This document shows positions 8,701-46,990 of a DNA stretch of 64,000 nucleotides, one piece after another. Positions within the stretch are counted from its first letter, which is position 1. Each line of letters begins with the position of its first letter. The notes below the pieces were generated by a model. It did not search any database. It saw only the letters and a program-made list of their open reading frames with translations, and had not been told where the DNA came from. The position numbers and the translations under genes were made by a program. The DNA is taken from the NCBI RefSeq assembly GCF_026151205.1, contig NC_087072.1:22337603-22401602 (forward strand), read 5' to 3'. The stretch is from Bolinopsis microptera. Its lineage: Eukaryota > Ctenophora > Tentaculata > Lobata > Bolinopsidae.

Positions 8701-11700
8701 GATCAGATTAAGCGGAAAGGTTTGGTTCTTGCATACTTGATCAAAATCATATTTATATATTTATGTCGATTAGCTTAAATACAGTATCCACCATATTTTA
8801 TACTTACTTACTATTGACTTTCTTTGAAAAATTGAAGTTAAGATAAGAGCCAATAAATAACGGCAGGTGTGGAGTCTGCCCTATCCTTCACGATGGCAGT
8901 ACTAACTTCACTTGGCTTGTTCGTGTACGTCATCTACTCCGCTTACGGACTGTCCGCCTTCCCGTTCAACTTTGTGAAGACGCGCGGTAGTGCTGCGCGG
9001 GAGCTGAACAAGTTGCGGGTGGATGAGATAACCCGGGATGAGAAGGAGAGACAACTTGCTTCCAAGTATGCTGACGGTCGACCTGTTATTCCCTCTGATC
9101 GGAGACTCCTGCAGAAACTAGCCCGGGTTTGTTTAAATAACTGAATTGTAATACATTTATGGGAATGTTTTGTACAAACGGTCGACCATTGTCCCCAATT
9201 GTATTAAATTGTGATATTTTAAATACAGTCTATATCACGATCTGATTAAAAACCATGGGGAATGTATAAAATTAATCAGTAAAACAACATGTTAGTATAA
9301 AGAAACCTGTGAAATAAGAATATACTCCCGGCCAGGATAAGGAGAGGTACAGTGAGCTCCAGAGGCTGGTTGAGTCGGAGCACGACAGCTGCTGGAACAA
9401 GATACTCATTTGCTGTAGACCTTTCAGTATCGTACTTGGCATCCTCCTCACCCTGCTGTCCCTTGCCTTTATGGCGTCTGTTTCTGTTACACTGTGAGCT
9501 TCTTGCCTTTTTCTTTTGTCTTATTAAAACTAATAGCTGTAATCTGTATTTTGCAGCGGTGAGTTTGAAAACATGGTCATGGCTCGAGAACATGCCAGTA
9601 GGTGGGTATACTGCACAGTGTTAAAACCCCCCTTCCGTTTAGCCGGTTCTTTTGTTATAATTTATAAACCAAAGTACTGTCTAAATAAAAATGGGGTGGG
9701 TCTATCAATTCTGATTTTTGTGTGGTACAACCACTCACTAAAATACAGTAACCCGGACCTGCTAGCTGAATTCAATGAGGAGAGATCACGTGCGAGGAAT
9801 GAGATCATAGAGCCCACAGATTACCTGAAATGAAACACCAGAGTTGCATGCTGTGGGCACGGCGAGAAAGATTCCCTCTTACCGTAGGATGCCAGCAACT
9901 GTTGACCGTAATCGAGAGAGATAGAGAAAGAGGAACACCTGTACCTTTAAATGGGGTTAGCGGCAAATCTTTTCAACGTAACTGGAATCGATTTTTGGGT
10001 GCATGTTTACGATTAAAGATCTAAGATTAAGTAGTTCTCAGTTTTAGTCTGAATTGGTGCGTAATTACTCGTGAGCCTTCGTTTGAGCAGTGTTGTTAAA
10101 TGCTAGTGAGTTATAATTTTCTATTTGTGTAAGCGTGCGGGTTATGGTTGCGTGTCCTGAGTCTGAGGTATCACTGAAGAGTTAAGTGAGTGCAGAGGAA
10201 ACCAATTATTATCATCCAATATACCAGTGTTTACTTCAACCGTCGTATTGATAAAGGATTTCAAAGGATTTCAAAGGATTTCAAAATAAAATGATCATTA
10301 CAATAAACATTGTGTCGGATCTAAATATTAAAAAATAAAGATAAAATGAAAGTCAAAAACGAAAAAACCGAAACCTGTCCTGAAAAATGCACGGTTGACG
10401 GTTAAAGTCTAAAGAGTTTAAAAACCGAGCTATTCTAAAAAGGAATGTTCATGACGCGAACAACCAGTCCTTTGTGTCCATGCCTAAGATCCACACATAA
10501 ATTCCACACTAAATCAAAAGTGTGAAACGCACACGAAAAATAACACACAGTCGGATCCACGTTTCGCATGTTGAGTCCGTGAGTCATGTTGAAGGTCCTT
10601 CCTTTTCTTTTCTGTCACTCGGGGGGAACCTCCGCTTGTTCACTTTACTCAAGAATCTGGCAGTTTCTCTGATCAATAGGATATCCTTGAAGAGGTCGGC
10701 AAAGGTCTCCGCTCCAGAGGTGATCATGGTTCTCGCCTGCTGACCTATGTTTCGCCTCAGGTCGTCGTAAAGCGAACAATCCGTGAGAACGTGTTTCTCA
10801 TCTTCAATGATCGGCTCAAACATTGGTAGTTCGGCCAGTATACCGACAGCTTCAAGGTCTGATGAAGAACAGTGCTTACAAATGCGACTGAGCGGATTTT
10901 CACGGTTGATGGCGTATCTACCGGTCTCGATGTTGAACTTATGAGCACTCATTCTGAACTGCGCCAGCCGCTTCACCTCTTCTCCACTGAGCTGCAGGTT
11001 CAGGTACGCTTCAGCTGTAAATTCACTTTTGATAGTGTTGTAGAAACTGAGCTTCCGGTTGTTTTGCCGCTCCTCGTTCCAACAGTTAATAAAAGTACTA
11101 CGTAGTGCTGTTTTGAATTGGTTGGGGTAGGTCAACCTGCGAGATGATACTGACTGAAGGCTTTGTCGGAGATCTTCTATACCTTTGTACCATGGCAGAT
11201 TGAGTGTGCGTTGTTCTATGAACGCCTGTCTGGCTAGACTTGTGCAACCAGCTCTGTCCATTTGCTCAAGTCGGTTGAAATACCCAAATACTTGCTTTGA
11301 TGCCTTTATCACTAGGGGGCAGCGGCCTGTATCACCCCATACACTCGCATTTGAGGTTTTTCTGCCCACTCCTAAGGTCCACTTGAGGAATGAGAGATGA
11401 AGCTTTTCGAGAGGATCTCTTGCAGTCTCCTTCAGGAGAGATTTGGTGTTGATATTATCTTGATAGTTTCTGACAAAGAGAGTCTCTGGGAGCCACACCT
11501 GACATCCGTATGTCACAATCGGTACCACAAGCGCGTCGAATAGCTTGAATACGATTGTTCGCCTGAAGTGTCTTAAGTCAATACTGCTTTTTAGCGCGAA
11601 GTAGCTTCTGAGACCTTTTTGCTTCAGTTTGTTCTGTGCTACTGCTGAAGAACCGTTGAGGGTAAAGGTTATCCCGAGGTAGCAATATTCTCGAACTGAT

Positions 11701-14700
11701 GTGATGTTGGTTTCGCCGAGTTGGAATGTCAGACTCTCTTTAAGGAGCCTCCCGGAACGGTTGAACACCATCACTGCCGTTTTTTCGATGTTAACGGTTA
11801 GTCCCCATTCGATACAGTAACTGTGTAAAACGTTTAGAAGTTTCTGTAGTCCAGTATGATCAAGGGCAAGAAGTATAAGATCATCAGCCCAGAGGAGATG
11901 AGTGATATTAACATTATTCAGTTCAGGGACGTTGACTTCCTCAGCGTTATCCAGATCTAGGGAGAGTTGGTGGATGAAACACTTGAACAGCTCAGGAGAC
12001 ATCGGGTGACCTTGCTCAGTCCCACAGTGAATGTCGATTGTCTCTGACAATCTGTTCAACAGTTTGATTTTTGCTGAGGAATGTGAATACATCTGCTCGA
12101 TACATTGAAAGTATCGACCTCTTACTCCTAGCTCCCAGAGTTTATAGAGCATGGCATCTCGGCACACAGAGTCGAACGCCTTCGCGTAGTCGACGAAGCA
12201 TCCATATAGCCTCTTTTTCCGTTGCGTTACATACTTTTGGATGCAAGTTGAGAGTGTTAGTATGTGGTCACTCGTCTGTGCTTTTTTACAGAACCCTAGC
12301 TGGTTTATGGTGTCTGGACAGTTCAGTGACCGGAATGTGAGTAGGCGCTGTAATAAGATAGTTGAAAACAGCTTCCCAACATTGCTCGCCACGGCTATCG
12401 CCCGGTAGTTGTTCGGATCGTATACACTCCCCTTTTTGTGCAAGGGGGTAACTAGAGAGGTCGTCCATGGATACTCCCCGAGTTTCAAACAGTGGTTGAA
12501 CAGGTTGAGAACAGCTGACAGCATTGGTTCATCTGACGAAATGAGGAACTCATTCAGGATTTTATCTTCGGCGATGGCTTTCCCTTTCTTAAGGCCTTTG
12601 ATGGCGGTCCGAAGTTCCTCTATTTCGATATCTTTGTCCAGAACTTCCACGAGTTCATGAACACGAAGTTCAGTCTTTCTGCGTTCCGTGAAGTCAGCAG
12701 TTTCTTCATTCGGGAGGGAAGGTTTTGAGTACAGCTCTTTGAAGAATTTACAGAAGTTCATCATATCGAAAACGTCCAGCTTTGAGCCATTTGAGGAGAA
12801 GCTTTTAAGTTTCTTAAAGCGACTCCAGTTTATGTCGCGCCCCTCGTCAACATCACGACAAAGAGATTCCACGAACTTGGCCTTCTTCTGTCTCACGAGC
12901 TTTCGATATTCGCGGCGTTTGTTGTAGTAGCTGTCTCTCAGTTCTTTATCAAGAGGACTTTTACCGTATGTTTTAGCTAATCGATTTAGTTCACGTTTTT
13001 CGATGATGCAGGCAATATCAAACCATGGAGACTTCGGTTTTGCCCTTTTGTATCCCCGAGTTTTCCTATTGAGGGGTTTTTGTTTATGTTTTCTAGGTCT
13101 TGGTAGGGCCTGATCAGCCATATCACGATAAATGCCGACGATGTTTTCATTGAGCTTAATGACATCCTCCTTTTTTACGCAAACAGCTTCAACCAGTTCC
13201 GCGATTCTGCTTGCAAACTGGGGTTCTTTTTGGACATCTAGGAACTGCTGTTTATTCTCTGAAGCATTCTCGTCCCATTTGTGTTTTATTGGGGCTGGCT
13301 GGAGCGAGGATAGAATTTCGTCCGGATCAATTATATAATTATGACTTAGTTTCAGTGTGCATAAGCATGGGCGGTGGTCTGAGAATTTCGTAAGATCTAA
13401 GACCTTAAGACTTTGCACCGATTCCCTTAGCATGGGGGATGCTGTTACGTAGTCTACAACGCTGTGTCCATTGTAATTAATTGAGGTGGGTTCCCCAAAG
13501 ATGTCTCCTAGTGTATCACCATTAAGAATGCTAAGGTTCAGACTGGATATGAAGTCCAGAAAAAGTTTTCCCCTTGGGTTTACCACAGAGTCTTTGCTTG
13601 ATCTTGTTGATTTTTCTGGAAAGCTTGCGATTGTTGAGAAAGCCTCGATGTCAGCTGGAGGTTCATCATCAAAGTTAAAGTTGAGGTCCCCTGTTCTTGC
13701 ATTGAAGTCTCCTAGAACCAGTTTCTCGCCGAGATCTGTGTTTTCAGCAACAAAGTCAATAATGGATTCGAGTGTTGACTGGGTTGGTCCACCATTGCTG
13801 TTTTTCAGTCTCTTTTTGTAGGATGACTGCTCTGGGGAGTCGTATACGTTGATTATTGTGAACTTAAGAGTATCATCAGTGGCGGGGCAAAAAGTCACCG
13901 CTTGAATATCTGGATGGGAGCTTTTTACGGGCTTGAAGTCTCCTGACAGGGATCGATGGACCCCCACACATAGCCCACCGGAGCGCGAGCCGGTTCTAAG
14001 GCTATTGTAGTATTTGAAGTTTGGAAGGTGGAACTCAGCCTTCGTTTCCTGCAGGCAGAATATGTTACACCCAATGAGAAGTTTGACGAAGTCCTCATCA
14101 TCGGCCTTGGGGCCCTCTTTGAAGGACATTGCGTCATGAATGTTCCACGACAAGATCCTCATAAGGTCTTGTTGGTGGCTCGTAGTCCTATCAGATATAG
14201 AATTAATCATTGCGCTTCCTTTTCGGTTTGTATCCAGTTTCGTCCTCGTAATTCCCGTGACTGGTCTCCATGTCTACAGTTCTATAAAGAGAATCACGAA
14301 ACATCAGCCAGGTTTTCCGTTGGCCTCTTTCTGAGAGGAACAGTTCTACGCCATTTTTTCCTGTCCCTTTGTTTATGAATCCACCGAGATTACGATTACA
14401 CGATGTAAAGACACGGTTTCGGTATTTTTGTCCTGATCTGAGGTTGCTCACAAAAGTTGACAGCAAGCCATTAAAGGATTCAATCTCCTCGGTCAGACGA
14501 GGGTAGCCAGGGATTGGGATGATCGCTGATAGGCAGAGTTTAGCCGTTGTCGATTCGAGGATGTTGTAGACCATCTGTTTATATTTACCGAAAAGATCGT
14601 CAGCAGAAAGTTTGAGCCAGAATAGGTCTTGAAATCCTGTATGCACGAACACGACATCTGGTTTTGTGTTTCGCACTTTTGATACGAGGCCTCCTTTCGA

Positions 14701-17700
14701 AATGATATCGTCGACCGAGAAGGCTCGATATGTGCTGATCTCAAAACGACTGCTAAATTTGGTCCCGTCGAATTTGTTGAAAAAATCATCGTGAACAAGG
14801 AGACATTTTCGGTTCGACCGCTGGGTCGGATGTGATCTTCCTCTTGGTGTTTCTGGGCTGGTCTGGGCATTCTCCTTTGGTGATTTTTGTGCTGGCTCCT
14901 TGTGGCTTAGGTTGTTAGCAGATACGGTTTCTCCATGAGTGCTATTTACTGTTGCCACATGGCTAGTTGGGATAGAATCTCCTGTATTTTCAGTTTGATC
15001 TATTCCTGGAGTCTTATCCTTATCAAGATCGGTTTTCTCGGAGGGGGGCTGTGATCGACTACTTCCTTCTGGTTCATGTTGTCGGCATTGGCCATTGGTA
15101 TCGTTGGCTGTTGAAGTTGTGGCTTCTTCCCGGTCCTCCTTCTTGTTTGATGGTTTCCTAGGTCGTTTAGTACCCAGTGGTGATGGGGCTGTCTCACACG
15201 AAAGCCTCGTGTCATGGCTTCCTAGAACCTTGATATTCTGTTGTTTTTTTGTTCTGTCACTGCAGTGATTGCTTGAGGTCTGGTTATGATCTCTTGTCGA
15301 GTTGTCATGTTTAGGTGGACCTCCTGACTTGCCTCTAGTAGGAGCTAGATGAGCACTAAGGCGCCGAGGGGAGTACAGCTGGTTGTTTTCAGATCTAGCG
15401 GAGGAACCAGGGATACTAGGAATAGGTATACTCTGCACTTCAACCTCATCCTCAGGAGGGATCATGTACGCAGACTCCTCGATGACTTCACTTTTAGATC
15501 CTATTCCCTCGATAACAAATTGTTCTTCCTCGATGAAAACCTGCTTGCTTCCTTTTGTTGTTGTTCGGCGGTTGTCAATCAAACATTTCATATCATTATT
15601 AAAGTGTTTAATTGAGTAATTCAGATAGTCGTAGCCATGGGTTTGTTTCAGCATTGTTGCGCAAATATCGGCATCAGTGACCCTCTCTAATTCGTGAAGA
15701 AGACGGTCATAGTTTTTCACTAAGGCATCCACATCCGCCCGTCGTCTGAGATCCGTATATCCAAGGTGGGTAAAGATCGCCTCAGGTTTCGTATCCATAA
15801 TAGTGTTGCAGATGTTGTTAAGGTTTTTTCGGGAGGAAATTGTTCTGAGCATTGATATATCACTATTGATATATCACTCTCAACTAGGTGTGTCTGCCCT
15901 GTGCTAGGATCTAATTGTAATATAAACTATAGAGGCTATTCTCTCTTCGTGGGGAATGGGGATCTAGTTTAAAATTATTGGAAAGGGGTCGTTCACATAT
16001 TACGTAATCATTTTTTGGAACCATTTTTACCCCCCCCCCCCCCCCCTCCGTAATCAGTTTTACACATAGCTATTGTGTCAAAATAACACTAGCGTAATCA
16101 TTCGGAACCCCCCCCCTCAGCTGATTACTTACTAGACGGCGCTCAGCCTGTCAATCCGCCAAATTCTCTATGTTTATGAACATAATAGCCTGGGGTCCCC
16201 AGGTTACTGATTGCGTAATATGTGAACGACCCCAAATAGCTACGCCTGCTTAAAAAAGGGGCAAGACCTGCTTCGTTACTAAATTTAAATATAAACAAAC
16301 TGGTATTATAATTATCATTATTAAACAGGATCGAGCTGAGGTATTCTCCTGGTACTTGAAATTTATATACTCGTTGTCTTTTTATATATAATACTTCTTT
16401 CAGTTACACCAGCAATGTCAGTTCTAAAATATGTACTTCCAATTTCCAGTGTAGTTATAGCGGTGGCAGGATCAGTTACCAATTTTCTTTCTCTATCCTA
16501 CTTTGTCAGAAAAGTTGAAAGAACTTTAAGCTGAATATGTCGGACTTTCTCCTTTCGCTGTTTACAGTCATTAGTGTCGCCTTTTATTTCTGCGAAGGAT
16601 CAATATGTGGCAAGGACAGTATTTCCACCAAAGGTGCAACCGCCGTTTTTGATCTCGCAGTGAACAGTTCTGCTTTTGCTACATGTCTTCTGAGTTTCAC
16701 AAGAACCATCTCTCTTTGCTACCCTTTCTACCAAATCCAGAAGAAGGCAGTTGGGATAGCAGCACTGATTTTCCTTGTGCAAGAAGTTTTGAGGGTCTTG
16801 ATGCGGTTTTATTATCACTATAATTCTGAGACAGAGAAGGAATATATGGACTCTCTGGACTTAGACATTCGTGTTATGATAGTTGTAATTTCATTGATAA
16901 TTGTTGTTAACCTAGTTTCTTCCGTTCTGTCTGTGTGGAAGCTTTGGAGGAACCAAACGAAGCTCGGAGTAACTCCAGTTAACGGTGATAACGAGGGTCC
17001 TCGAACCAACACCAGTCAGAGAGCCACCATCACTATCCTCATAGTCACCATTCTCTTCTGCTTCTTCAATACCATCTTCTGTATCTCCTTGTTCTTCGTA
17101 AGATATTATGAAGAAAATAAGGATGATATTTCACAACCACAAATGCTGTTGCACGGAGTTCCGCTTTGGCTCGCTGTTCCCCTCAACTCAGCCATCAATC
17201 CCATCATTTACTTTATCAGAAAGAAAGACATGAGAAATTATATAATGAAGGACCTTCTGCCTAGATTCGTTTGTTGGTGGAAATAATCCATCAGACAAAT
17301 CAACTAAGGTAGAATAACGTCGCCTTTTCAATCCGTAAACTTGAAAAAAAAAACTTGAGATCAGCAACAGAGTTCTTTACTGAACATTACGAACTTGAGT
17401 ATCACCTCAATTAAGACAAACCGAATAAATAAAAAACATGTCAACATTACTTTCTTACAGCTTTACAGCTCCATTCGCATTGGACTGTGTCCCAAATGGT
17501 CCTTCCAGCGACTAGCAAGATGGCTACTTTGTTAAGAGAAGATAAGTGAAGGTCAGATGAACATAGAAACCGATGGGGTTGCCCCCCCCCCTACAGTTTC
17601 CTTTACACTTCAAATAACAGGCAGGACTATAAAACTCTTTAAGGATAGAAGTCGAGGGAGAATCTCACCGCCTGAAGGCAATGCCTGTGACGTTGTAGTA

Positions 17701-22249: not shown

Positions 22250-24179
22250 GTTAGTTTTTAACTGTGTAGTGAGAAGATAAGATAATGAATATTATATGTA
22301 AAAGTATATACCCGCCCTCAAATCGAAAAAAACCTACATTTTAATATACTCTAATCATCTCCCCAATGAATAGAACAGTTTTTGGGACATGAAAATATAC
22401 TCTTGTTTTATCAAGTATGTCGATCAACAATCAACATGGATTCAGCGCTTTTTGGATTGAACATTTGAGTACGACGTAATAGAGCTAAAATAATGGCTAG
22501 AGCTATTTATTATATGTGGTCAATGTGCTGTCCTTATAGAATATAGATGCAAGAAAATCAATGTGGTTGCTTTGATTAAATTCTTAATTTGAATATTAAA
22601 ATGTTTCCAAATTGTCCCACTTGGATGCAATTGGTGTTCTGACTTCTTATGACGTCAAAGGGTGCACGGCCATTGTTTTAGCGACGCCCATACCAGAGCC
22701 ACTTGATAGAATATGTAGTATACTAATTGGGTTCTGGAGTGCATGATTAGTCTCAAATGAGTTTTTATTCTTCTGTGAAAGAAACACTAGTGTGTAGATA
22801 CACTTGCATTAGGATATTTTCAAACTTCAAAGCCATTATTTCTGCATATTATTATTTCTGCATTATGTTTAAACTGTAGCTGATCCGTTTAATTTCCAAA
22901 CTTGCGAACCTTTTCGATTATTAAATCTTTGTTCTCGACTTTGTATCAAACTATCAACTAATTTCAGTATACTTTGTAATATATGTAGTATTGATGCTGA
23001 CTAAGTTGACCAGGTCCAACATGATAGTGTAATAATATGTTCACATATTCAGTCAACTCAGTAACATCACCATGATGTGGAATTAAAGGTTTTCTCTTGG
23101 TGCACTTGGGCAGTAAACACGATGTTTGGGTACTGAGTTAGCGTGGTGTTCTACAGCTAATAAACTTGCTGCCAGTATTATAGATGTCTTGCTGTATACT
23201 TTGAAATAACTCTTCCTTGCCCTAGACAGCCTGGCCATCTCCCGCTCTGGAAATGGTTATTAGTTCCAGTATTATAAGCATTGGTATAATGTAATGGTTA
23301 ACGTGTGTTTGGTATAATCATAATAATGATGTAGTACAGAACTGTTACACTGACTACAATGTTATTAGCACTGCTGTACGAATTACGAAATAGCCCCACT
23401 TTAATAGTATGCATTGATTGCTGCTCTACTGGCCTTACTACCTACGTCATTGTACGTATGACGTTATTGTACGTATGCCGTATGCATGACGTCATTGTAC
23501 GTATGCAGCACACAGGTATGACGTCATTGTACGTTTGACGTGTAGTTTTAGGTGTAATCTTTAATTTCCAAGAGTGTTTGTCTAACCTGGATAGTGAATA
23601 TTTATATCTTTATTCGGTGTGATTATTCCCTAAAAGCTATCTGTGTAAGACCGTGTCCATTGGGCCGTGTTCTTGGAGCCATGTTCACAAAGCTGTGTCG
23701 TATTAATGAGCCGTGACCCTATGATCAGCTGTGGTCCGTGTCTCGTTTATTTTAGTCACTCATAGTCATCAGGGGGGGGGGGGTGTCATCACTCATCAGT
23801 CAATGAGATTTACTCTCTTGTCATTTCGCCAGAATTCTAAGAAATCTCACTTCTCCTCCATTATCGATTACCCCTTTATCCCGCACATCAAATATACTTT
23901 AAAATAACTCTGCTCAGTGCTCAGTGGCTTGTGATAGAGGCGGTGGCTACCGATTTTAAAATTTCCTTCGTAACTAGTAGAGTTACTGGGTTTGAACTTT
24001 GATGACACATTACCGCTAAATTTGCCTTGACTTCTCCATGATAATTTAATGGAATTCCTCAGTTATCACTTTTTACATCTCGTATATGTTTGTCTTTTAT
24101 CTCTCTCGCTAATTGATGAGATAAGCCGTTTTTACGACGCACTGGCTACAGCATACAGCTTGTAACTACTGACGAACAG
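22250..24179. other. Intronic or intergenic spacer with a CRE-like cluster
   Basis: No exon recognised. At 23440-23545 the string tgacgtcattgtacgt(a/t)tg recurs four times with variation, including two perfect TGACGTCA palindromes. A G-run lies near 23773. Confidence 0.5.
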
Positions 24180-24204
24180 ACGAACAGACGAACTCACGGG
24201 CTCA

Positions 24205-25863
24205 GTGGTACCGACACAGAGCGGTCCTTTTCCTAAAAGCCACAAAAACCTCCCTACTAAAGTAAGTCACTACATTTCGATTTGCAATTTGACTGAAATG
24301 GAGACCCAGACTGAGCTAAGCGGTCGCACATATTGTTTCACCACGGCAACTTGCATGGACCTGATTGGTAAACTAGTAGGATACCAGCTCGATCGGGAGC
24401 TGAAATCTTTCGGAATGGACGACGAAACTCTTTGTAATCTAACCGTCCTTAAAAAGAAGGAACTACTCAAATTGAACCTTCAAGATAATGTGTGTTGCCA
24501 AACACCGAGCGAGACGACTAACAAACTCACTAAACTAACACAACTGTTTTCGAGGTCCGCGAACGATACGGTGACAGATCTAAAGAAGAGCTTAGAAGAC
24601 GCCAAGGATCTCGTCTCCTCCCTACAGAAGCTTGATCCCGCCACCCACCCCCCACCCACCCTCCCTGAAACGGCAGTGACGGAAACTTCTCACGTTCAAG
24701 ATATAGAGGAGCAGCCCTTCATCGCACTGGATTCCGGTAGCTTTCTCGAGAGGTTTGAGTTTGAAAAGCTTAATTCTGAACTGACTTTTGAGTGCAGCTT
24801 TGCGAATAGGAAAGTAACTTACTTCGGCGATTTACCTTACAAGTACACTGGGGGTTATCACAAGAAGAAGGCCTTGCCAAAGGATTCATATCTCACTGAA
24901 ATTCTACTTGCTGTGGCGGATATGTGCAAATCAAATGATATTGATTACTCCGAGTTCAATAGCTTCATGGTGACTAAGTATGATACCCCCGACGATTACA
25001 TACCCCCTCACTCGGATGATGAACAGTGTATAGCTAGAGATAGTAATATTCTTACAGTTTCTTTCGGGGGAGCTCGAGAAGTTGTTTTCCGTCGCCGCCC
25101 ACCTGGCGAATACCGCAAACAGAGCTTAACTGTGAAGCACGGCGAGTGCTACGTCATGTCACGTAAATCTCAGGATAGTTTTGACCATGCCGTCCCCAAG
25201 GTTGATCCTGCTAATTTTGACAGGCCGAGAATTAGTATAACACTTCGAAAATTGACCCCTAACATCCCACAAATCCCCGCCAATGAACCTCAGCGACCCA
25301 AACGGGTGTTAGTATTATCAGACAGTAAAAACTCTTCTTTCGACTGTTCCAAGTTTAAAGCGCCCGTAGTTGCCTTCCGCGAAGATCTCTTCCTGCTGCG
25401 CGATCTTGAGGAACACAAAGAATCTATCAAATCCTCGGACATAGTTCTTATTAGTGCTGGGGTAAACGACATGAGGAAAAATGGTGTGAACGCCCAAATT
25501 TTGCATGATCATGTCAGAAACTTTGTCGTACAGTATCCGAAAACCCAGTTTCTATTTGATTCCGTTACAAACGTGACCATGAATGCAGACCCGTACAATG
25601 AACTGAACCCGAACATTAACTTCTTCAATCAGCTTATGTTTAAATGCTCCCTTCGTCATGCCAACATACATCTGTTTGATAACCTATCGTTCGGATGGGG
25701 TCATCTAGCACGTGACGGCCTACACTTTAACTACAGCGGACAGAAAGTCACGTCTGATACCTGGGTCCATGTTGTATTAGTCTGCCTTGGATTTAGACGT
25801 GGCCCTTTACCACTACGTTATGACTTTGTGAAATTGCATGAAGAGTCTCAGTCCTGGAAATGA
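24205..25863 (+). CDS. LINE-B ORF1: AlkB-type 2OG-Fe(II) oxygenase fused to SGNH esterase
   Basis: 552 aa (or 521 from the internal ATG at 24298). The N-terminal ~150 residues are helical and polar with a heptad-like stretch (LTKLTQLFS, LKKSLEDAKDLVSSLQKL), possibly for oligomerisation. Residues about 185-350 are AlkB-like: F-MVTKYDTPDDYI then PHSDDE (H269-x-D271), a second His at 328 (DHAV), and R342-ISITL-R348, matching the AlkB iron and 2OG ligands. Residues about 365-530 are SGNH-like: LVLSDSKN (nucleophile block, S372-S374), SAGVNDM (GxND block) and RDGLHF (D504, H507). Both active sites look intact. SGNH domains are known in CR1-type ORF1 proteins; the AlkB part suggests RNA or DNA demethylation (inference). 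Upstream of ORF2, same strand. Confidence 0.85.
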   Translation: MVPTQSGPFPKSHKNLPTKVSHYISICNLTEMETQTELSGRTYCFTTATCMDLIGKLVGYQLDRELKSFGMDDETLCNLTVLKKKELLKLNLQDNVCCQTPSETTNKLTKLTQLFSRSANDTVTDLKKSLEDAKDLVSSLQKLDPATHPPPTLPETAVTETSHVQDIEEQPFIALDSGSFLERFEFEKLNSELTFECSFANRKVTYFGDLPYKYTGGYHKKKALPKDSYLTEILLAVADMCKSNDIDYSEFNSFMVTKYDTPDDYIPPHSDDEQCIARDSNILTVSFGGAREVVFRRRPPGEYRKQSLTVKHGECYVMSRKSQDSFDHAVPKVDPANFDRPRISITLRKLTPNIPQIPANEPQRPKRVLVLSDSKNSSFDCSKFKAPVVAFREDLFLLRDLEEHKESIKSSDIVLISAGVNDMRKNGVNAQILHDHVRNFVVQYPKTQFLFDSVTNVTMNADPYNELNPNINFFNQLMFKCSLRHANIHLFDNLSFGWGHLARDGLHFNYSGQKVTSDTWVHVVLVCLGFRRGPLPLRYDFVKLHEESQSWK

Positions 25864-26550
25864 ACGATAAATCCATTTAACAAAATAGTAAAGTTTCAAT
25901 CTAGAGATCAAAGTATAAATCGTATGTGACCAAATATTTAAGTCTTTAGAAATGCACTGAACACAAGAAACAAAATCAATTTCCAACAAAATAATACTTA
26001 CTACAAACTTTATGCTCGGCCTTGTAACTTGATGCAAGAGTAGCGAATTAAATGTCTAATCTTCTTTTTAGAGAGATAACGCCGATGATAAGGCGACTTA
26101 CATTAAAAAGTAATTAAGTACACGTAATTTGCCACACGCGATTCCGGTGCCATGTACTCGGCACTGAAATACATTGTACACACTCTGCACTATGCAGATA
26201 CACTGACAGACACACTGACTAGTGACTTACAACAACACAAGCAAGCTGTTGCCAAGTGCAACATAAAATGTCTGAATCTCTACGGTTGCTAGGTAACCAA
26301 AAAGTAGAATTTTCAGTCTAGTAAAGAGTAAATTGTAAACACAGTTTTTCGTTTTTCAATTTTTAATTTTTGACGATAATCTCTCACACAGAACTGAAAG
26401 TTCTCGTTAGATTTATCAAATTAATTTTCTTATTTTTCTTACTTCTTCCTCTCTTTTCTCCTCCTCCTTTTTCTTTCTCTTGGTATATCTATATATAGAG
26501 ACCGCAGGTATAAATACTTATCGGTGAATCTCGGTAATTGCAATCTTTAA
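25864..26550. other. Inter-ORF spacer of LINE-B
   Basis: AT-rich, with a pyrimidine-rich stretch at 26425-26485 before ORF2. No open frame. Confidence 0.5.
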
Positions 26551-29500
26551 ATGTCAAGCTTACCCAAAGCGAAAGTTTGTGATAAATGTAACAAACGTAT
26601 TCCAAAAACCGCGCCTCTGCTTACTTGCTCACTTTGCAACGACACCAAGCATCCTAAATGTATGAGACTCTCGAAATCTGATTCCCTGCACATAATATCT
26701 TCAGGCTTTTCTTGGACCTGTTACGATTGTTTAGCCAGTGCCCTCCCTATCAATGCGTGCCATTCACCAGTCGAGAAGCCTGCATTCGGGCCTGTATTCA
26801 AAGTTAAATGCAATTCCTGTGCAGGATGGTGCTATTCACCAAAAAACCTAAGATATTGTAACTGGTGTGGAAAAAGTATACATTCCAAGTGTATGAAACA
26901 CGAGTTAGGTTGTAAAACATGTTGTGAATCTATGATTCCTGGTTTCAACTACGAACCACACCATCTACTTGATGATTACAGCCACCTACATGACTTATTT
27001 TTTAATCCATATGATAGAGAAAACATTGCAAATGATATAGGTAATCAACTTGATGATGAACAGGACAGGGAGTACTTTGATGAAATTTCAAATATACTGG
27101 TAGAATGTAGATATAAGGAACAGAAGCACGTACAGAACTCAGGAGCAAACGAGCTGAAATTATTTTCACTGAATATTCGATCGCTGATCAAGAATATTGA
27201 ACACCTGCGAGAAAACATAGAAACATACTGCAAGTACGATGTCCTATGTCTGAACGAAACCAATCTCATTGAATCCAATTTGCCCAATGGCGTAACTGAT
27301 ATTTTACTCGAGGGTTTCCATGAACCTCTACTTAAGGGCCCAAACAGAACTTCGGGTCGGGGTGGTGGTCTTGCAATTTATATCAATAAGCGAGTGTGTG
27401 AGTTTGAGAATATTGAACAATTTATTCCTAATCTCCGGGACGTAGATGAGATCACCAAATCGGCAGGTGAATTCATGTTGGTGAAAATTAACAACTGTAA
27501 AGGACTCAACAAAACCAAACTAATTGTTGACGTTTATAGGTCTCCATCACGTGACCCCGATAAGTTCATAGCTTTACTTGATTCCGTACTATTAAGCTTA
27601 GACCGTCACAACAGAAAACACATAATGTTTGCTGGAGATTTTAATTTAGACCTCATAAACCACAGCAACAATGTACATTGCCAAAATCTAGTGGACACCA
27701 TGTCGAAATACGGTTTTTTTCAGCTTGTTGCACGACCAACACGAGTTACAAGTCACAGCAGGACCTTAATTGATCATGTCTACAGCAACGATGTTCAGCA
27801 TACTCTCAGTTGCAATGTCCTGACAGTTGACATTTCAGACCATTTTGCCACCTTGACTACGATCTCTCTTGGTGATTTCTCTTACAGTCCTGCTAATGAT
27901 CGATCCAAAACCGAACGATCACAAAAGCGTGATACACGTGCATTCAACGCCGCTAATAACTTAAAATTTTACGAACTGATCGACGCTGAAAATTGGGAGC
28001 AAATAACATCAAACATGGATGCTAATGAGCAGTATGATAAGTTCAACGAAATTTACAACAAGCACTATAACACCGCGTATCCAATCAAATCTAAGCATGT
28101 CAGAAGGATGAATGAAAGGAAAAACCCCAAGCCTTTTATTCTGCCGTGGCTTGAAGACGCGTGTGCTCGAAAAAACTTGATGTATTTTGAATCCACAGTT
28201 TGCCCCACACAGAAAAATGATGCTACGTACAAAAAATTGAAAAATTTTTGTGAAAAACATATCAATCTAGCAAGGGACAAATACCACAAAAAATACTTTG
28301 AAGAATATCAGTACAATTCCAAGAAACAGTGGGAGATGATAAATAAACTTCTAGGCAGGAAAGCTAAGCAAAATTCCAAATTCAAATTGAGGAGAGATGA
28401 TGGAAACTTGATAAATTCGAACCGCGATGTTGCTGAACATTTCAACGCGTACTTTGCTAATATAGCAACTAGAATCAAAGATCAGATCAGTGCGCGTACC
28501 ACTTTCGACCCTGGCGGGCATGCAAGATATTTAGACAGCCAGGTTGAGGAGAGCATGTTCATCTCGCCAACTGATCCTGTCGAAATCCAACGAACAATAT
28601 GTACCTTGAAAAATAAGGCCACACAGGATGTAAAAGTTGAGCCGCTCAAGATTGCCAAGGATTGTCCTAAGTTTTGTGGAATACTCTCAAATGTAGTAAA
28701 TTCTTCCTTCAATGAAGGCTGCTTTCCGACATCACTGAAAATTGCAAAGGTAGTTCCTATCCTTAAGGGAGGCTCAAAACTGGATGTGAAAAACTACAGA
28801 CCAATATCATTGCTCTGCACCTTTTCAAAAATCTATGAGAAACTCATGCACAGAAGAGTCCTTGACTTCCTGGAGCGACATAGCACTTTATTTGAAGGAC
28901 AATACGGTTTTCGGCCGGGTCGGTCGTGTGAACATGCGCTCCTTGATGCAACCAACACGATTAGACACAACCTCTCCAAAAAAGAGGTCTCTCTACTCCT
29001 CCTACTTGATTTTAGCAAAGCGTTTGATGTAATTTCCCACGATATTCTCTTAGACAAACTGTATCATTATGGCATAAGAGGACTAGCACACCAATGGTTC
29101 AAGTCTTATCTAAGTTCCAGGAGTCAGTATGTTTCAATAGGGGGCACAAATTCTTCCTCACAGTCCATGAGACACGGAGTGCCGCAAGGCAGTATTTTAG
29201 GACCTTTACTTTTCATAATATATATCAATGACATGCCAAAAATCAAATCGTACGCTAAATTTGTTTTATATGCTGACGACGCAAACATAATTATCTCAGG
29301 TAAAAATCATCAAGAAATACTACAAAAGATGACCGAATTTTCACCTTTATTGATAAACTGGGTAGATCAAAATGGTCTTTCGTTAAACCTTAAGAAAACG
29401 TGCTACATGCTCCTCTCACCCAACAGAACCTCAACACCTGACGTAAATATTCAAATTGCAGGCACCACTATTGAGCGAAAAACTGAGGCCCGATTTCTTG

Positions 29501-30213
29501 GCGTAATTGTTGACGAAAAATTGACCTGGACCAGTCACATTACTGCTCTTAAAGCGAAAATGATGCGGTATATTGGTATTATGTACAAAATAAAAAGTCG
29601 GCTGCCGATTAAAGTTAGACTCCAGATATACCAAAGCTTTGTACAGTCTCATATAAACTATTGTTCATTGATATGGGGTTTTGCTGCAAAAAGCCATATA
29701 GATGCTTTATTCAGCAAACAGAAGCAAGGAATAAGGGCTATTATGCCTGGCTTCGTAAACTACTACTTTAAGGAAGGTGCCTTACCACAACACACAAAGC
29801 CATTTTTCAGTGAACATGAAATTCTCACTGTGCATGGTCTTATCGTTTACAACTCAATTATCTTGATGCATAAAGTTAAAAGCATGCCACAATTAGTCCC
29901 CAAAAACATCTCTCAAGCTTTTCCCGTCGACATACCCACAAAACTTTCTGATCACACGTCAGCCTGCTCCTGGCTCCAGTTATACGGGAAAAGACACTTT
30001 CAAAACAGTATTTTCTACAAGGGACCACTGCTCTCTGTCTTCGCAGACAAAGCAGACGTTACTACCCTTCCGACATTATTTTCGATAAATCTGTTCAAGA
30101 GTAGTGCCAAGAAAATGCTTCTTAATCTTCAAAGTGATGGTGATGTTAACGAGTGGCAACCATTCCTACTGCACAATGTTCCTGGCCTAAGACAGTCTAG
30201 ACGTGAAATTTAA
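26551..30213 (+). CDS. LINE-B ORF2: zinc finger, endonuclease and reverse transcriptase
   Basis: 1220 aa, uninterrupted. Residues 10-65 form a PHD-like zinc finger (CDKCNKRI ... CSLCND-KH-KC ... CYDC); a second Cys/His cluster follows (CNSC ... CNWCGKSIHSKC). An APE-type endonuclease spans about 205-450 (FSLNIRSL, VLCLNETN, FAGDFNLDL, DISDHFA). The reverse transcriptase shows NYRPISLLCTFSKIYEKL, LLDFSKAFDVI (motif A), GVPQGSILGPLLF (motif B) and YADDANI (motif C). The C-terminal region matches the fragment at 2172-2772. An RT of jockey/CR1/L2 type is the best reading; the exact clade needs a tree. All catalytic residues are present. Confidence 0.93.
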   Translation: MSSLPKAKVCDKCNKRIPKTAPLLTCSLCNDTKHPKCMRLSKSDSLHIISSGFSWTCYDCLASALPINACHSPVEKPAFGPVFKVKCNSCAGWCYSPKNLRYCNWCGKSIHSKCMKHELGCKTCCESMIPGFNYEPHHLLDDYSHLHDLFFNPYDRENIANDIGNQLDDEQDREYFDEISNILVECRYKEQKHVQNSGANELKLFSLNIRSLIKNIEHLRENIETYCKYDVLCLNETNLIESNLPNGVTDILLEGFHEPLLKGPNRTSGRGGGLAIYINKRVCEFENIEQFIPNLRDVDEITKSAGEFMLVKINNCKGLNKTKLIVDVYRSPSRDPDKFIALLDSVLLSLDRHNRKHIMFAGDFNLDLINHSNNVHCQNLVDTMSKYGFFQLVARPTRVTSHSRTLIDHVYSNDVQHTLSCNVLTVDISDHFATLTTISLGDFSYSPANDRSKTERSQKRDTRAFNAANNLKFYELIDAENWEQITSNMDANEQYDKFNEIYNKHYNTAYPIKSKHVRRMNERKNPKPFILPWLEDACARKNLMYFESTVCPTQKNDATYKKLKNFCEKHINLARDKYHKKYFEEYQYNSKKQWEMINKLLGRKAKQNSKFKLRRDDGNLINSNRDVAEHFNAYFANIATRIKDQISARTTFDPGGHARYLDSQVEESMFISPTDPVEIQRTICTLKNKATQDVKVEPLKIAKDCPKFCGILSNVVNSSFNEGCFPTSLKIAKVVPILKGGSKLDVKNYRPISLLCTFSKIYEKLMHRRVLDFLERHSTLFEGQYGFRPGRSCEHALLDATNTIRHNLSKKEVSLLLLLDFSKAFDVISHDILLDKLYHYGIRGLAHQWFKSYLSSRSQYVSIGGTNSSSQSMRHGVPQGSILGPLLFIIYINDMPKIKSYAKFVLYADDANIIISGKNHQEILQKMTEFSPLLINWVDQNGLSLNLKKTCYMLLSPNRTSTPDVNIQIAGTTIERKTEARFLGVIVDEKLTWTSHITALKAKMMRYIGIMYKIKSRLPIKVRLQIYQSFVQSHINYCSLIWGFAAKSHIDALFSKQKQGIRAIMPGFVNYYFKEGALPQHTKPFFSEHEILTVHGLIVYNSIILMHKVKSMPQLVPKNISQAFPVDIPTKLSDHTSACSWLQLYGKRHFQNSIFYKGPLLSVFADKADVTTLPTLFSINLFKSSAKKMLLNLQSDGDVNEWQPFLLHNVPGLRQSRREI

Positions 30214-30870
30214 ACTTTTAACATTTAACCTGAATCGAATTTCAACTGAAACGAATATAATCTAAGTTTAAATTAAGTCTATTGTCTAATTAATGGCTTG
30301 CAACAGGGAGCAGTATGAAAATCACACAACCCAGCACATAGAAACTACACTAAATGACACAAATTTAAATGACAACTCGCAATTACTGACTACCAATATA
30401 ATAACCGCTCGCATAACTACCCCCACTTAGCGTAGATAAGCAAGCATTTCACTGCCGCTAAATTCTTTTTCCATACATTAATCTCAATCGCGCACTCATA
30501 ATTACTGTAAGCGCTGAGTTACCGGCCAAAATCATTAATCACTGATGGTAAAATTTTGCACAAAATTTTAAAATCAATAGTCCAAGCTGTTCAGTGCAAT
30601 TCTAAACTTCTTAACCTATAGGTTATGGATGTGTAATATCATGTGTAGCGTGAAGCGTTGTGTTTTTTAAATCTGTAGTTCATAGTACTTCATGATCACA
30701 GTGTACTTTTTGATAAACCGTGTGCAGTGCCCTTTCCAGAGGGTTTTTTTAAAAGAATTCTTTAACGTTACTATTTTCTATCTATTACTGTTTGTATTAT
30801 AATTTTGAGTAAACATTAATCGAGTAAACCGCTCGATTCCCAATCAAAAAATCAATCAATCAGAAATACT

Positions 30871-32139
30871 CCTAAATCATGCGGATCTTCTTTAAGGGTA
30901 ATTGATGTTAATGCCCAGAATTTGTTTATGCCAAAAATGGCGCGATCAATGATTTCTGCAGTCTACATTCACAAATTACAGAGCATTCAACTTGAGGGTT
31001 GCATTAACTTTTTATGTTCCTTGCGAGCTTTATCATCTAACTTTGCGAAGCACACTTTGTGCACGAACACCTGAGCACCTTTTTATATTTATCACGTGAC
31101 TATCGATTGTCGTTGTGATTGGGTATCAAGCCGCTCTTTCAGGGTAGTCATTACGTCACAAATATTACATTAACGCTAATGCCCGGATGGTCTTGAGCCC
31201 ATGTCTCGAGTTTCTATTTTGAGCCTCAAGCATTCGGTTGAAGTGATTTGTTCTTTGCTGTTCTTAGCCTATGCAATGACGTTTTTTGACATCATGAGAC
31301 CGCCTCTAATTAAATCGAACAGCTAATCTATGCTAAATGTTTCTTGATTATGACTCGACTATTTACATTTACTTTTTCAATGACTCTTACGAAATTTATT
31401 TGATTTGCACTTCAAAACGAGCTCAAATAGATCTCAACACGGGCCTAAGTGGGCTGATGGATTTAACTGTTTGGAAATAGTAAACAAGGATCCTACTTCC
31501 TCATGCGCTCTCACAGAATGTTATCAACCCACCGCATGCGGTATCTGTTCACCAGGAGGAGAAAATCCCGGAACTCGGTTCCCTTCCTCTCTTCCCGCTC
31601 TTTAGATGGCATCTGGGAGAAAACTAATGGGGCCTTAGTTCTCTTCCTGTCCACGTCTTGGTTTGTATTTACTGAACTAGTATTCTGTACCCTGGTTATC
31701 AGTCGATATTAAATGTAAAGTCAGTCAGCAATCTGTGCTGAAAGTTTTGGACGAGTTTCATGATTAATTGAGAATGTTCAATCAGACATTCCATGCTTTC
31801 AACAAATTATAAAACTTGGCACCGGGCCGATCTAGAGGCCCAGAATAACTCACATTGAACCAAGTTAATGATAGGTACCACTCACGTGATGCACTTAGCA
31901 GATGATCCCCAGGTCTGCTTGATAATACCCCACTGTAATAGGATCTAACATAATAGCCAATAAACGGACGACTTAGCCGGGTTCCAACCAATCAGAACAC
32001 TGTATTTAATCGGTTGAGTAGGAACACTTTCAAGCTTGTCAGGTTCTGTAATTAGCTCTATTCAGTGTATTGGTTGTGTGTTTCCTGTAGAATCTGACTA
32101 GAGTCAGTTTTGTTGGGGGGTTTTGCGCCAATATTAGTC
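30871..32139. other. Intronic or intergenic spacer upstream of APMAP
   Basis: No exon recognised. The last 150 bp probably hold the proximal APMAP promoter (AT-rich tatttaatcgg near 32003), but no firm core element could be named. Confidence 0.5.
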
Positions 32140-35100
32140 ATGGTCCGTTCTAAAGTTGAGCAGCATTATTTTGAGTAAGTCCTGCTTTTCAGTTTAATTC
32201 TCTTAAAATTGGGTATTGGTCCAGTACAGGCTCCAGTACAGGCTCCAGTACAGGCTCCAGTACAGGCTCCAGTACAGGCTCCAGTACAGGCTCCAGTACA
32301 GGCTCCAGACTCCAGTACAGGCTCCAGTACAGGCTCCAGTACAGGCTTCAGTACAGGCTCCAGTACAGGCTCCAGTACATGCTCCAGTACAGGCTCTACG
32401 ACCGCATTATTTTAAAATTATTGACCACTAATCAGTCTTATGACCCGCAGCTCAGCCAGTTCGGTGTGCAAGAGATCAGTACAGTTGATATCTCTCCTTC
32501 TTGTTGTGATGATCGCTGTTATCGTCTCCTACAGTCCTCCGATACGTCCTGTTACTTTCAGGTTAGTCCCGGACGTTTTGTTAATTGGAAATTTAGACTT
32601 GAATCACCAGATTTCATTCGTATTCTAGAGAAATTTTTAGGTGTTTTATTTACAATTAAAATTATTTGTAGTTTGTTCAACTTGTTCTTAACGAGTTTCC
32701 ATCCCCAGAATGCCACCAGCCCCGAAGCTCACTGGACCACTAACAGAAAATAACAGACTCAGATCCACTCAACAGATCCTAAAAAGTAGGATTGTTGGGC
32801 CTGAATCCATAGCTATAGGGTCAGATGGTAAGTCAGGGCCCCGTACCTTCAACAGTTCGTGATTAATATCATTCTTTATTTTTTTCCTAGGAACAGGGCT
32901 TACGAGAATCGTATCAGTATGATTTGTGCAACACATATATCACACTTCTACCACAAACCTACCGTTAAACACCCTCCCCTTTACACAGGACTAGCTAACA
33001 AACACCCCTCCCCAGGAACCCTGTACACAGGACTAGCTAACAAACACCCCTCCCCAGGAACCCTTTACACAGGACTGGCTATCAAACACCCCTCCCCAGG
33101 AACCCTGTACACAGGACTAGCTAACAAACACCCCTCCCCAGGAACCCTGTACACAGGACTAGCTAACAAACACCCCTCCCCAGGAACCCTTTACACAGGA
33201 CTAGCTAACAAACACCCCTCCCCAGGAACCCTGTACACAGGACTAGCTAACAAACACCCCTCCCCAGGAACCCTTTACACAGGACTAGCTAACAAACACC
33301 CCTCCCCAGGAACCCTTTACACAGGACTAGCTAACAAACACCCCTCCCCAGGAACCCTTTACACAGGACTAGCTAACAAACACCCCTCCCTAGGAACCCT
33401 TTACACAGGACTAGCTAACAAACACCCCTCCCCAGGAACCCTTTACACAGGACTAGCTAACAAACACCCCTCCCCAGGAACCCTGTACGGGGGGGGGGGG
33501 GGGGGGGGGTAATGACTACTTTTGGGGACTTGGGGAATTACGTCAACGATTTTACCCCGAGTCCCCATGATTTTTAGTCCCCATTAGTCCCCAAAAGTCT
33601 CCATTAATCCCCATTTAGATGATTTTTAGTCCCCATTAGTCCCCAAAAGTCTCCATTAGTCCCCATTCAGATTTATCCTACTCTTATCTTGGACAAAACA
33701 TCTCGATCGATTCGTGATTAAACTAACCTGAAAACCATAAATAACTGTCAAAAATTCTGGGGACTTATGGGGACAAATGGTGAATTACGTCAACGAGTTG
33801 ACCTCTAGTCCCCACGATTTTTAGTCCCCATTAGTCCCCAAAAGTCTCCATTGTTAGTCATTACCCCCCCCCCCCCCTGTACACAGGACTAGCTAACAAA
33901 CACCCCTCCCCAGGAACCCTGTACACAGGACTAGCTAACGGTAAGATAGTGTCAGTACGGGGTAAAGTGATAACAGAGATAGGCTACACTGGTCACGTGC
34001 ATTGCTCCAGTGAGGAGACTTGTGGGAGACCCCTCGGGGTCAGGATCCACAATGAGTCTCTCTATGTCATCAACGCTTACAAAGGTTAGATAAGTACACG
34101 TTTTTGGATTTGCGTTACCTGGTTTAATTGGAATTTATCTGAGACCAATTGCATGGCTATCTTTTTTATGACAAAAGATCTGATCGTTTAAGATTCCCTA
34201 TTTGCTGCGATTAAAAGCTTTGGTAATCTGAATTTGGTTATTTTATCAGCTCTAAATATCTACATCTTTACAGGAATACTGAAGGTGTCCCTGAACGGTG
34301 ATTCGCAACAAATGTTAGTGAATATGAAGGACGAATCTATACGTCTGAACAACAGACAAACCCGCTTTCTAAACGATCTTGACATATCATCGGCCGGTAA
34401 ATTGATAACAATAAATTTTTTAAATCAGTAGCTGGAGTCAATCTAATGAGTTTGATGTGTGATTATCCCGTTCAGTTCATTTTGCGGTTATAAAATGTGC
34501 CAGATCTGCCGGTCTCAGACAACGAGTTGACTAAATAATTGATTGTTTTCAGCAGAAAATATAATATGTAAATAATTTCTGTAGAACTAGACTAGTAGAC
34601 TTCTCTTCCTGCCTAACCTGCTGTATCAGGTGTTATCTACTTCACGGACTCGTCATCACGACACTCTCGAGAGTACAACATCTACGAGTTCCTGGAAGCT
34701 GGTCCCCACGGTACTCTCTTCAGTTACAACATGTTGACTCACGAGATTAAAGTACTGATATCAGGTCTACATTTCCCTAACGGGGTCCAGTTAGCACCAG
34801 ATGAGAGCTATGTTCTGGTAGCAGAATGTACCCGGGCTCGGATTGTCAGGTACTGGTTAAGGGGTGAGTTGACAGGAACATGGGACTATTTCGCTGTCAA
34901 CCTACCCGGTTATCCTGATAATATCAGGCGGAGAGAAAGTGGAGGGTATTGGTTAGGTATGGCAGCTATTAGACGACACCCTTTCTCCCTAGTTGACTCC
35001 CTAGCTCCCTACCCTCAAGTCAGAGCTACGCTCACTAAAATCCTTCCTTATTTTCTCCTCCGATCTCTGGCCTCTCAGTACGGTATGGTTGTAGTATTGG

Positions 35101-36944: not shown

Positions 36945-37897
36945 GAGTACTGAGGCCCCTACTGAGGCCCCTACTGAGGCCCCTACTGAGGCCCCTACTG
37001 AGGCCCCTACTCAGGCCCCTACTCAGGCCCCTACTCAGGCCCCTACTCAGGCCCCTACTCAGGCCCCTACTCAGGCCCCTACTCAGGCCCCTACTCACTA
37101 CTGAGGCCCCTACTCAGGCCCCTACTCAGGCCCCTACTGAGGCCCCTACTCAGGCCCCTACTCAGGCCCCTACTGAGGCCCCTACTCAGGCCCCTACTCA
37201 GGCCCCTACTCAGGCCCCTACTCAGGCCCCTACTCAGGCCCCTACTCAGGCCCCTACTCAGGCCCCTACTCACTACTCAGGCCCCTACTCAGGCCCCTAC
37301 TCAGGCCCCTACTCAGGCCCCTACTCACTACTCAGGCCCCTACTCAGGCCCCTACTGAGGCCCCTACTCAGGCCCCTACTCAGGCCCCTACTCAGGCCCC
37401 TACTCAGGCCCTACTCACTACTCAGGCCCCTACTCAGGCCCCTACTCAGGCCCCTACTCAGGCCCCTACTCCCCTCACTACTCAGGCCCCTACTCAGGCC
37501 CCTACTCAGGCCCCTACTCACTACTCAGGCCCCTACTCAGGCCCCTACTGAGGCCCCTACTCAGGCCCCTACTCAGGCCCCTACTCAGGCCCCTACTCAC
37601 TACTCAGGCCCCTACTCAGGCCCCTACTCAGGCCCCTACTCACTACTCAGGCCCCTACTCAGGCCCCTACTCAGGCCCCTACTCAGGCCCCTACTCACTA
37701 CTCAGGCCCCTACTCAGGCTCCTACTCAGGCCCCTACTCAGGCCCCTACTCACTACTCAGGCCCCTACTCAGGCCCCTACTCAGGCCCCTACTCAGGCCC
37801 CTACTCAGGCCCCTACTCAGGCCCCTACTCAGGCCCCTACTCAGGCCCCTACTCAGGCCCCTACTCAGGCCCCTACTCAGGCCCCTACTCAGGCCCA
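36945..37897 (+). repeat. 12-bp minisatellite (ggcccctactca) with higher-order pattern
   Basis: About 950 bp of ggcccctact(c/g)a, interrupted at irregular intervals by cactactca, giving a higher-order structure of 3-8 units. Confidence 0.95.

Positions 37898-46398: not shown

Positions 46399-46990
<592 letters not shown>

Follow-up and report, generated by a model that had tools for sequence, protein, structure and literature searches.

We analysed a window of 64,000 nucleotides from the ctenophore Bolinopsis microptera (contig NC_087072.1, positions 22,337,603 to 22,401,602, forward strand), which contains a long interspersed nuclear element (LINE) whose first open reading frame (ORF1) fuses an AlkB-type 2-oxoglutarate-Fe(II) oxygenase domain to an SGNH hydrolase-like domain. 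The results of our searches showed that the AlkB-SGNH ORF1 is a genome-wide phenomenon in several LINE lineages and not a feature of one element and, judged from the domain matches, the same AlkB-SGNH module is common to LINEs and Helitron-type elements. An earlier note, made from the letters of this DNA, had described a single element; that element is real, but the phenomenon extends throughout the genome and includes Helitron-type elements. The coordinates of all features are collected in Table 1.

The frame of 552 aa reported in the earlier note (24205-25863) is open and lies within a stop-to-stop frame of 565 codons, but the ORF1 protein (ORF1p) is probably one of 521 aa beginning at Met32, the GTG start listed at 24205 being the product of a bacterial start rule. 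A search with AlkB profiles, which the note had named as a way in which its proposal could fail, gave a strong match over the cut-off: the Pfam 2OG-FeII_Oxy_2 profile (PF13532) matched residues 212-348 with an E-value of 3.1e-15 and 57.4 bits, for a cut-off of 31.2. Compared on its own with the PDB, the ORF1 of the window matched ALKBH3 (E 2.7e-10) and ALKBH2 (2e-8), while a profile of 12 ORF1s matched ALKBH3 (1.1e-28), ALKBH2 (1.5e-22), ALKBH8 (7e-8) and AlkB (2e-5), and no entry named ALKBH5, FTO or ALKBH1 was present among the 48 PDB matches listed for this profile at E <= 0.1. By these comparisons the nearest solved relatives of the element AlkB are ALKBH3 and ALKBH2, which are of the RNA and single-stranded DNA (ssDNA) repair type, and not an N6-methyladenosine (m6A) eraser of the ALKBH5/FTO type.

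The conservation of the putative active site was determined in the 12 ORF1s, 11 of which are 21-55% identical to that of the window. Twenty of the 176 AlkB columns were invariant, and H269, D271, H328, R342 and R348, the five residues singled out in the earlier note, were all among them; the chance that five columns named in advance would all land in these 20 is 1.2e-5. We take R342 and R348 to be the 2-oxoglutarate/catalytic arginines. Tyr259, of the NxY motif, was also invariant. The HxD, distal histidine and RxxxxxR motifs were present in 30 of 30 element AlkB domains, a set that includes many near-copies as well as the Helitron-type and L035-type domains and for which the motif residues of L023, L024, L028, L034 and L038 were taken from alignments; beyond these 30, the three motifs were found in all three host-like domains and in loci L045 and L046. 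The free variation of these residues across copies, which the note had considered as a possible refutation, was absent in the divergent families. On this pattern of conservation, the AlkB domain of ORF1 is very probably catalytically active. No Pfam match to an RNA recognition motif (RRM) or a zinc knuckle was obtained in the ORF1 of the window or in those of L034 to L037, and the N-terminal stretch that follows the conserved F..ATCL.L block is helical, heptad-like and coiled-coil-like as judged by eye only.

The Pfam Lipase_GDSL_2 profile (PF13472) matched residues 403-514 of the ORF1 of the window with an E-value of 1.5e-4 and 22.7 bits, below the cut-off of 32.9, and the SGNH matches of two other families, L045 and L046, were above it (49 and 40.3 bits). 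The 12-ORF1 profile also matched solved SGNH hydrolases (2hsj, E 2.9e-6). S374 of the SDS block, G419 and N421 of the GVND block and H507 of the DGLH block were invariant in the 12 ORF1s, in agreement with the three blocks noticed earlier; together with the PF13532 and ALKBH3 profile matches, this conservation bears out the fusion of the two domains. Asp504 of the DGLH block is kept in the window and replaced by an asparagine or a histidine in families D-G, so that the AlkB site is conserved more strictly than the SGNH site. Two other loci, L029 (C1:18539002) and L030 (C8:8269545), have frames of 986 and 1019 aa with a C-terminal SGNH domain 46-47% identical to that of the LINE, and no AlkB was detected in these frames; a helicase-like ATPase region (UvrD/ResIII) of L029 was sub-threshold by Pfam. 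A possible reading of these frames is the capture of SGNH by a host gene or by another element.

The ends of the LINE were set by two copies, L009 (contig C1) and L010 (contig C13), which start exactly at window position 24064, end at 30844-30847 and are 99.7-99.8% identical to the window. The flanks of the three copies differ from one another, and the ORF1 proteins of L009 and L010 show the same three differences from that of the window (T100S, V123M and D394N), which leave AlkB untouched. A target-site duplication was not found, the longest words shared at the ends of the copies being 5, 8 and 7 nt. The LINE of the window is young, mobile and recently active, and the three near-identical copies rule out a lone degenerate copy. 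The intact ORF2 that the note had placed downstream was recovered, with Pfam matches to Exo_endo_phos and RVT_1 (4.7e-36); the PHD-like match at its N-terminus was sub-threshold. No short ORF common to the inter-ORF regions of six families was seen by eye. The RNA fold of positions 30790-30860, around the 3' terminal stem-loop, had a z of -3.2, with 2 of 200 shuffles equally good, and there was no Rfam match within 23500-31500. The stem-loop with its short repeats and the PHD-like fingers point to the CR1/L2 clade, which is suggestive only.

We then searched the genome (264.65 Mb, 232 contigs). Loci were counted from six ORF1 or Helitron queries when both domains fell in a single query row or in rows next to each other; a number of the loci counted cover one of the two domains incompletely, and the figures are lower bounds. 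At least 259 non-redundant loci matched AlkB and SGNH, and 244 of the 259 were without a stop in the matched rows (hand count). They belong to several lineages of LINEs and include 12 loci of Helitron type. The genome search with PF13532 gave 587 candidates (tally 151); all 150 rows among the matches listed exceeded the cut-off, and at least 92 of these fell in AlkB-SGNH loci. The union of both searches is at least 317 AlkB-bearing loci, three host-like genes included, these three (L038, L039 and L040) being the ones inspected among the 58 PF13532 matches outside the two-domain loci. At L040, the host-like ALKBH frame (855-1742) has, 0.7 kb downstream of it, a frame resembling SGNH (2454-2999; PF13472 E 0.0045, below cut-off), possibly a cellular or old-element AlkB-SGNH neighbourhood.

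Twenty-one ORF1s of the lineage of the window element were aligned, and relatives of its ORF2 were found in 19 of the 21 loci (in two frames at L012, L018 and L027), with none at L017 and only a weak match at L019. AlkB is followed by SGNH in L034, L036 and L037, with endonuclease-like and reverse transcriptase (RT) frames downstream, ORF2 being broken in the L034 and L037 copies. L035 has an AlkB near the N-terminus, an RT only in pieces and a C-terminal SGNH-like block, recognized by eye and without a Pfam SGNH match, which aligns with the decayed SGNH of a second LINE of the window. L045 and L046 were picked by their SGNH match alone and both had an AlkB upstream of it, which rejects SGNH-only families as a rule; for L045, Pfam gave only PF03171, below cut-off, and the AlkB assignment comes from our own profile (50.5 bits). 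Further families were assigned by similarity to those inspected. The identity of the RT to that of the window was 68-69% for family B, 62-65% for C, E and G, 51% for F and 48% for D, and it decreased to 42%, 37% and 33% for families J, I and H, respectively, and to 26% for a piece of K. The ORF1 of the second LINE of the window (10584-15852) has a decayed SGNH-like C-terminus, with HDDF at the expected catalytic serine, that is 26% identical to that of L035, and its RT pieces share 45% and 48% identity with the L035 type. AlkB was not detected in this ORF1 by Pfam, and our own profile gave an E-value of 0.17 (two-protein file); the domain is therefore no fixed component of the LINEs of this genome, and the AlkB-SGNH pairing is common without being universal.

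The module was also found outside the LINEs. A single frame of L031 holds SGNH, AlkB, DUF6570 and Helitron_like_N, with Pfam E-values of 2.6e-22 for PF14214, 4.6e-22 for PF13532 and 9.6e-7 for PF13472 (29.9 bits, below cut-off). Twelve loci match the SGNH-AlkB part of L031 well; the two domains share a frame in nine of them, one of which has a stop within the matched row, and three are broken. L031 is the only locus at which the Rep domain was tested and shown; the other 11 loci are called Helitron-type from the similarity of their SGNH-AlkB part to L031, and no Rep domain was present in the examined stretch of L033.

The origin of the element AlkB was examined with trees in which each family or subfamily was represented by a single row, near-copies being excluded; the domain is short and several branches are long. 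In a tree of 22 rows, a branch supported at 86/69 divided the 18 element AlkBs from the other four rows, which are three host-like ALKBH genes and human ALKBH3, and the support of the split reached 99/94 when the long-branched L035-type row went to the host side. The separation of the element AlkBs from the ALKBH2/3-like genes of the host has support that is moderate and falls short of firm. In an earlier tree the L035 type had grouped with the host genes (99/96); the addition of two families brought the 18 element rows together, which makes a separate capture by the L035 type less likely. The Helitron-type AlkBs sit among those of the LINEs, with L045/L046 (85/80), and a group made up of the 15 remaining rows, without Helitrons and the L035 type, was not rejected (p 0.085). 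The most economical history would be a single old capture of AlkB that later spread from one type of element to another; alternatively, the L035 type may have captured an AlkB of its own. Two scans of viral contigs gave 0 relatives. The AlkB codons of seven close pairs summed to nine synonymous and six nonsynonymous changes, a ratio below the about three nonsynonymous to one synonymous expected without selection, and the SGNH codons of the same pairs summed to seven and nine, respectively.

We propose that ORF1p is a coat or chaperone protein that would coat the element RNA, and in which an N-terminus that looks multimerising is followed by an AlkB-type demethylase and by the SGNH domain. Esterase-containing ORF1 proteins in RepBase have no structural RNA-binding domain (PMC3905857, in part), and the AlkB domain could supply the nucleic-acid contact that they otherwise lack. 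It would oxidatively strip methyl groups from the element RNA and single-stranded cDNA, the first candidate substrates being 1-methyladenine and 3-methylcytosine, both of which stall reverse transcriptases, and methyl removal would let target-primed reverse transcription reach full length. Watson-Crick-face modifications impede reverse transcription, and AlkB serves in vitro to take off methyl groups of this kind (PMC11417395, in part). The SGNH domain may bind or act on membrane lipids, by analogy to the zebrafish ZfL2-1 ORF1p, whose esterase binds acidic phospholipids (PMC3905857, in part). The parts of this proposal differ in strength. Action of AlkB on the RNA or ssDNA of the element itself is favoured on balance; that ORF1p as a whole is an RNA/ssDNA-binding demethylase which keeps the element template copyable is the best of the explanations considered, with about even odds of being right; and Watson-Crick-face methyl groups are a plausible substrate that we rate a little below even.

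Several observations weigh against this proposal. Both asparagines of the NxY and RxNxTxR motifs contact 2-oxoglutarate in AlkB; the first is a threonine in 12 of the 18 element rows, that of the window included, an asparagine in five and a serine in one, and the second is a serine in all 18, so that the elements read RxSx[TS]xR (18 of 18 rows) where the three host-like genes and ALKBH3 read RxNxTxR (4 of 4). In the close pair L017/L019, AlkB has no synonymous and four nonsynonymous changes, and in eight between-family pairs the AlkB dN was 0.30-0.68 with a saturated dS (NG86), which makes dN/dS a bound only. Since Helitron-type elements are included, an RNA-only explanation does not cover all carriers. 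Helitrons are not known to have an RNA template, and the repair of templates for reverse transcription is therefore not the whole story; an ssDNA substrate or a counter-defence role is required. A tentative and rather doubtful extension is that the module is a reusable anti-methylation kit, passed among LINE lineages and Helitrons, which would counter either a host defence by methylation of RNA or ssDNA or chemical methylation as a major obstacle to the replication of the elements.

The main rival to template repair is counter-defence, in which AlkB would erase host methyl marks on the RNA (m6A, 1-methyladenosine) or the DNA (N6-methyldeoxyadenosine, 6mA) of mobile elements. We consider it possible, if on the unlikely side. 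It would account for the presence of the domain in both retrotransposons and Helitrons, and the ALKBH5-like protein encoded by a Gypsy element of orchids is able to demethylate m6A in single-stranded RNA (ssRNA) in vitro (PMC9289625, in part). However, m6A helps and ALKBH5 suppresses retrotransposition of human L1 (PMC7873242, in part), and the nearest solved relatives of the element domain, ALKBH3 and ALKBH2, are not m6A erasers. MT-A70 methyltransferase stretches do occur in the genome (7 matches), but there was no expansion of this family or of N6_N4_Mtase (PF01555, 0 matches), so amplified host methyltransferases were not found in the only two families searched.

AlkB could instead be mainly a nucleic-acid-binding module of a structural ORF1p, its catalysis incidental or lost. 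The scanned ORF1s are otherwise without an RNA-binding fold by Pfam and the two 2-oxoglutarate-contact positions are changed, yet the iron triad and both arginines are kept in 30 of 30 element domains despite an ORF1 identity as low as 21%, and we hold this explanation improbable because a binding-only module would not need the iron ligands and arginines. Still less probable is an action of AlkB elsewhere, for instance on host tRNA, mRNA or protein, that makes the cell more permissive: ALKBH8, which acts on tRNA, is among the profile matches (E 7e-8), but the closest matches are RNA/ssDNA repair homologues and LINE ORF1 proteins act preferentially in cis on their own ribonucleoprotein (RNP). 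The possibility of an assembly chimaera or of an open frame arising by chance, for which no supporting point was found, is ruled out for practical purposes by three near-identical full-length insertions with different flanks, at least 259 two-domain loci and profile E-values down to 1e-28.

The plant viral AlkB domains are embedded in replicase polyproteins and are not known to be accompanied by SGNH. Like the plant RNA viruses that carry them (Alphaflexiviridae, Betaflexiviridae and Closteroviridae, where a role in RNA repair has been postulated; cited in PMC9289625, in part), the element described here is a genetic parasite with its own AlkB. Its organization resembles that of LINEs with a type IV ORF1 (CR1/L2, zebrafish ZfL2-1), which have two ORFs, ORF1 preceding an endonuclease-RT ORF2, a C-terminal SGNH and no RRM or CCHC found, and PHD domains occur in the CR1/L2 superfamily (PMC3905857 and PMC4120745, in part). 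Unlike the type IV ORF1, made of a coiled coil and an SGNH esterase, the ORF1 of the window has AlkB between the N-terminal region and SGNH, and the term AlkB does not occur in the main texts of these two papers. The esterase ORF1 was present in only two vertebrate subgroups among 448 elements (PMC4120745, in part), whereas the host here is a ctenophore.

The orchid Ty3/Gypsy elements also encode an AlkB-type demethylase, shown for the orchid protein to be active on m6A in ssRNA; they are long terminal repeat (LTR) elements of a plant, with an ALKBH5-like protein in a separate ORF2 and a title that speaks of recent acquisition (PMC9289625, in part). In contrast, the elements described here are non-LTR, their AlkB is ALKBH3/2-like and fused to SGNH, many families as well as Helitron-type elements carry it, and its activity is predicted from sequence. 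Cellular ALKBH3 and ALKBH2, the best solved relatives, share the iron ligands but are stand-alone repair enzymes. Full-text searches of the literature for AlkB gave no AlkB in a LINE or a Helitron among the matches listed, RepBase and Dfam lying outside their coverage, and the closest match listed was the orchid Gypsy protein. No passages on AlkB were found in PMC6338049 and PMC5563155, and those of PMC11294593 and PMC10161547 concerned host genes only. What appears to be new here is the esterase-type ORF1 with an added AlkB, its sharing with Helitron-type elements being the most surprising part.

Table 1. Positions of the features described in the text (window coordinates, except for the Helitron-type polyproteins, which are given by locus)
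Feature	Position	Strand	Remarks
Full-length LINE, ~6784 bp (6.78 kb)	24064..30847	+	Ends set by copies L009 and L010
ORF1 from Met32 (probable start), 521 aa	24298..25863	+	Sister family B begins near Met32 (alignment, by inspection)
ORF1 N-terminal region, residues 41-165	24325..24699	+	Alignment of 21 ORF1s: conserved F..ATCL.L block, then coiled-coil-like stretch
AlkB-type 2-oxoglutarate-Fe(II) oxygenase domain, residues 178-353	24736..25263	+	Pfam match 212-348
Iron ligands H269 and D271 (HSDDE)	25009..25017	+	Invariant in 12 ORF1s
Distal iron ligand H328	25186..25188	+	Invariant in 12 ORF1s
R342...R348 (RISITLR)	25228..25248	+	Invariant in 12 ORF1s
SGNH hydrolase-like domain, residues 366-531	25300..25797	+	S374, G419/N421, D504/H507
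Inter-ORF region, 687 bp	25864..26550	+	GC 0.33
ORF2, 1220 aa, intact	26551..30213	+	PHD-like N-terminus; apurinic-type endonuclease, residues 206-431; RT, residues 745-987
3' terminal stem-loop AATCGAG...CTCGATT	30818..30838	+	AATC-type short repeats next, in window copy
Helitron-type polyproteins	L031:4303-9900, L032:4883-9901, L033:1-2967		SGNH precedes AlkB; linkers long, of Pro/Ala and tandem repeats
Second LINE	10584..15852 (ORF1 14203-15852, ORF2 10584-14210)	-	Both ORFs open
TauD-type 2-oxoglutarate oxygenase frame, 275 aa	49762-50589	-	PF02668 E 5e-12; family other than AlkB
RT frame of another LINE, 795 aa	51588-53975	+	RVT_1 3e-34, weak zf-RVT
Fragment resembling the C-terminus of ORF2 in a LINE related to that described here	2172-2669	-
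Large tandem arrays	6568-7207, 32977-33488, 36948-37896, 40755-41279, 46401-46991, 59447-60347		Periods 21, 42, 12, 34, 6 and 36 bp

Among the other features of the window, the tandem array with the 36-bp period is 99% matched over 25 copies.

No component of non-LTR retrotransposition is less well understood than the ORF1 proteins of LINEs, and an apparently intact demethylase in ORF1 raises the testable question of whether methylated bases on the RNA or DNA of the elements limit transposition and the elements remove them. Hundreds of AlkB variants that arose naturally, joined to an RNP protein, are available in these elements. The occurrence of the module in LINEs as well as in Helitron-type elements is a sign that the mobile DNA of this genome is under a shared pressure, and it suggests that these elements may repair or unmark their own genetic material.

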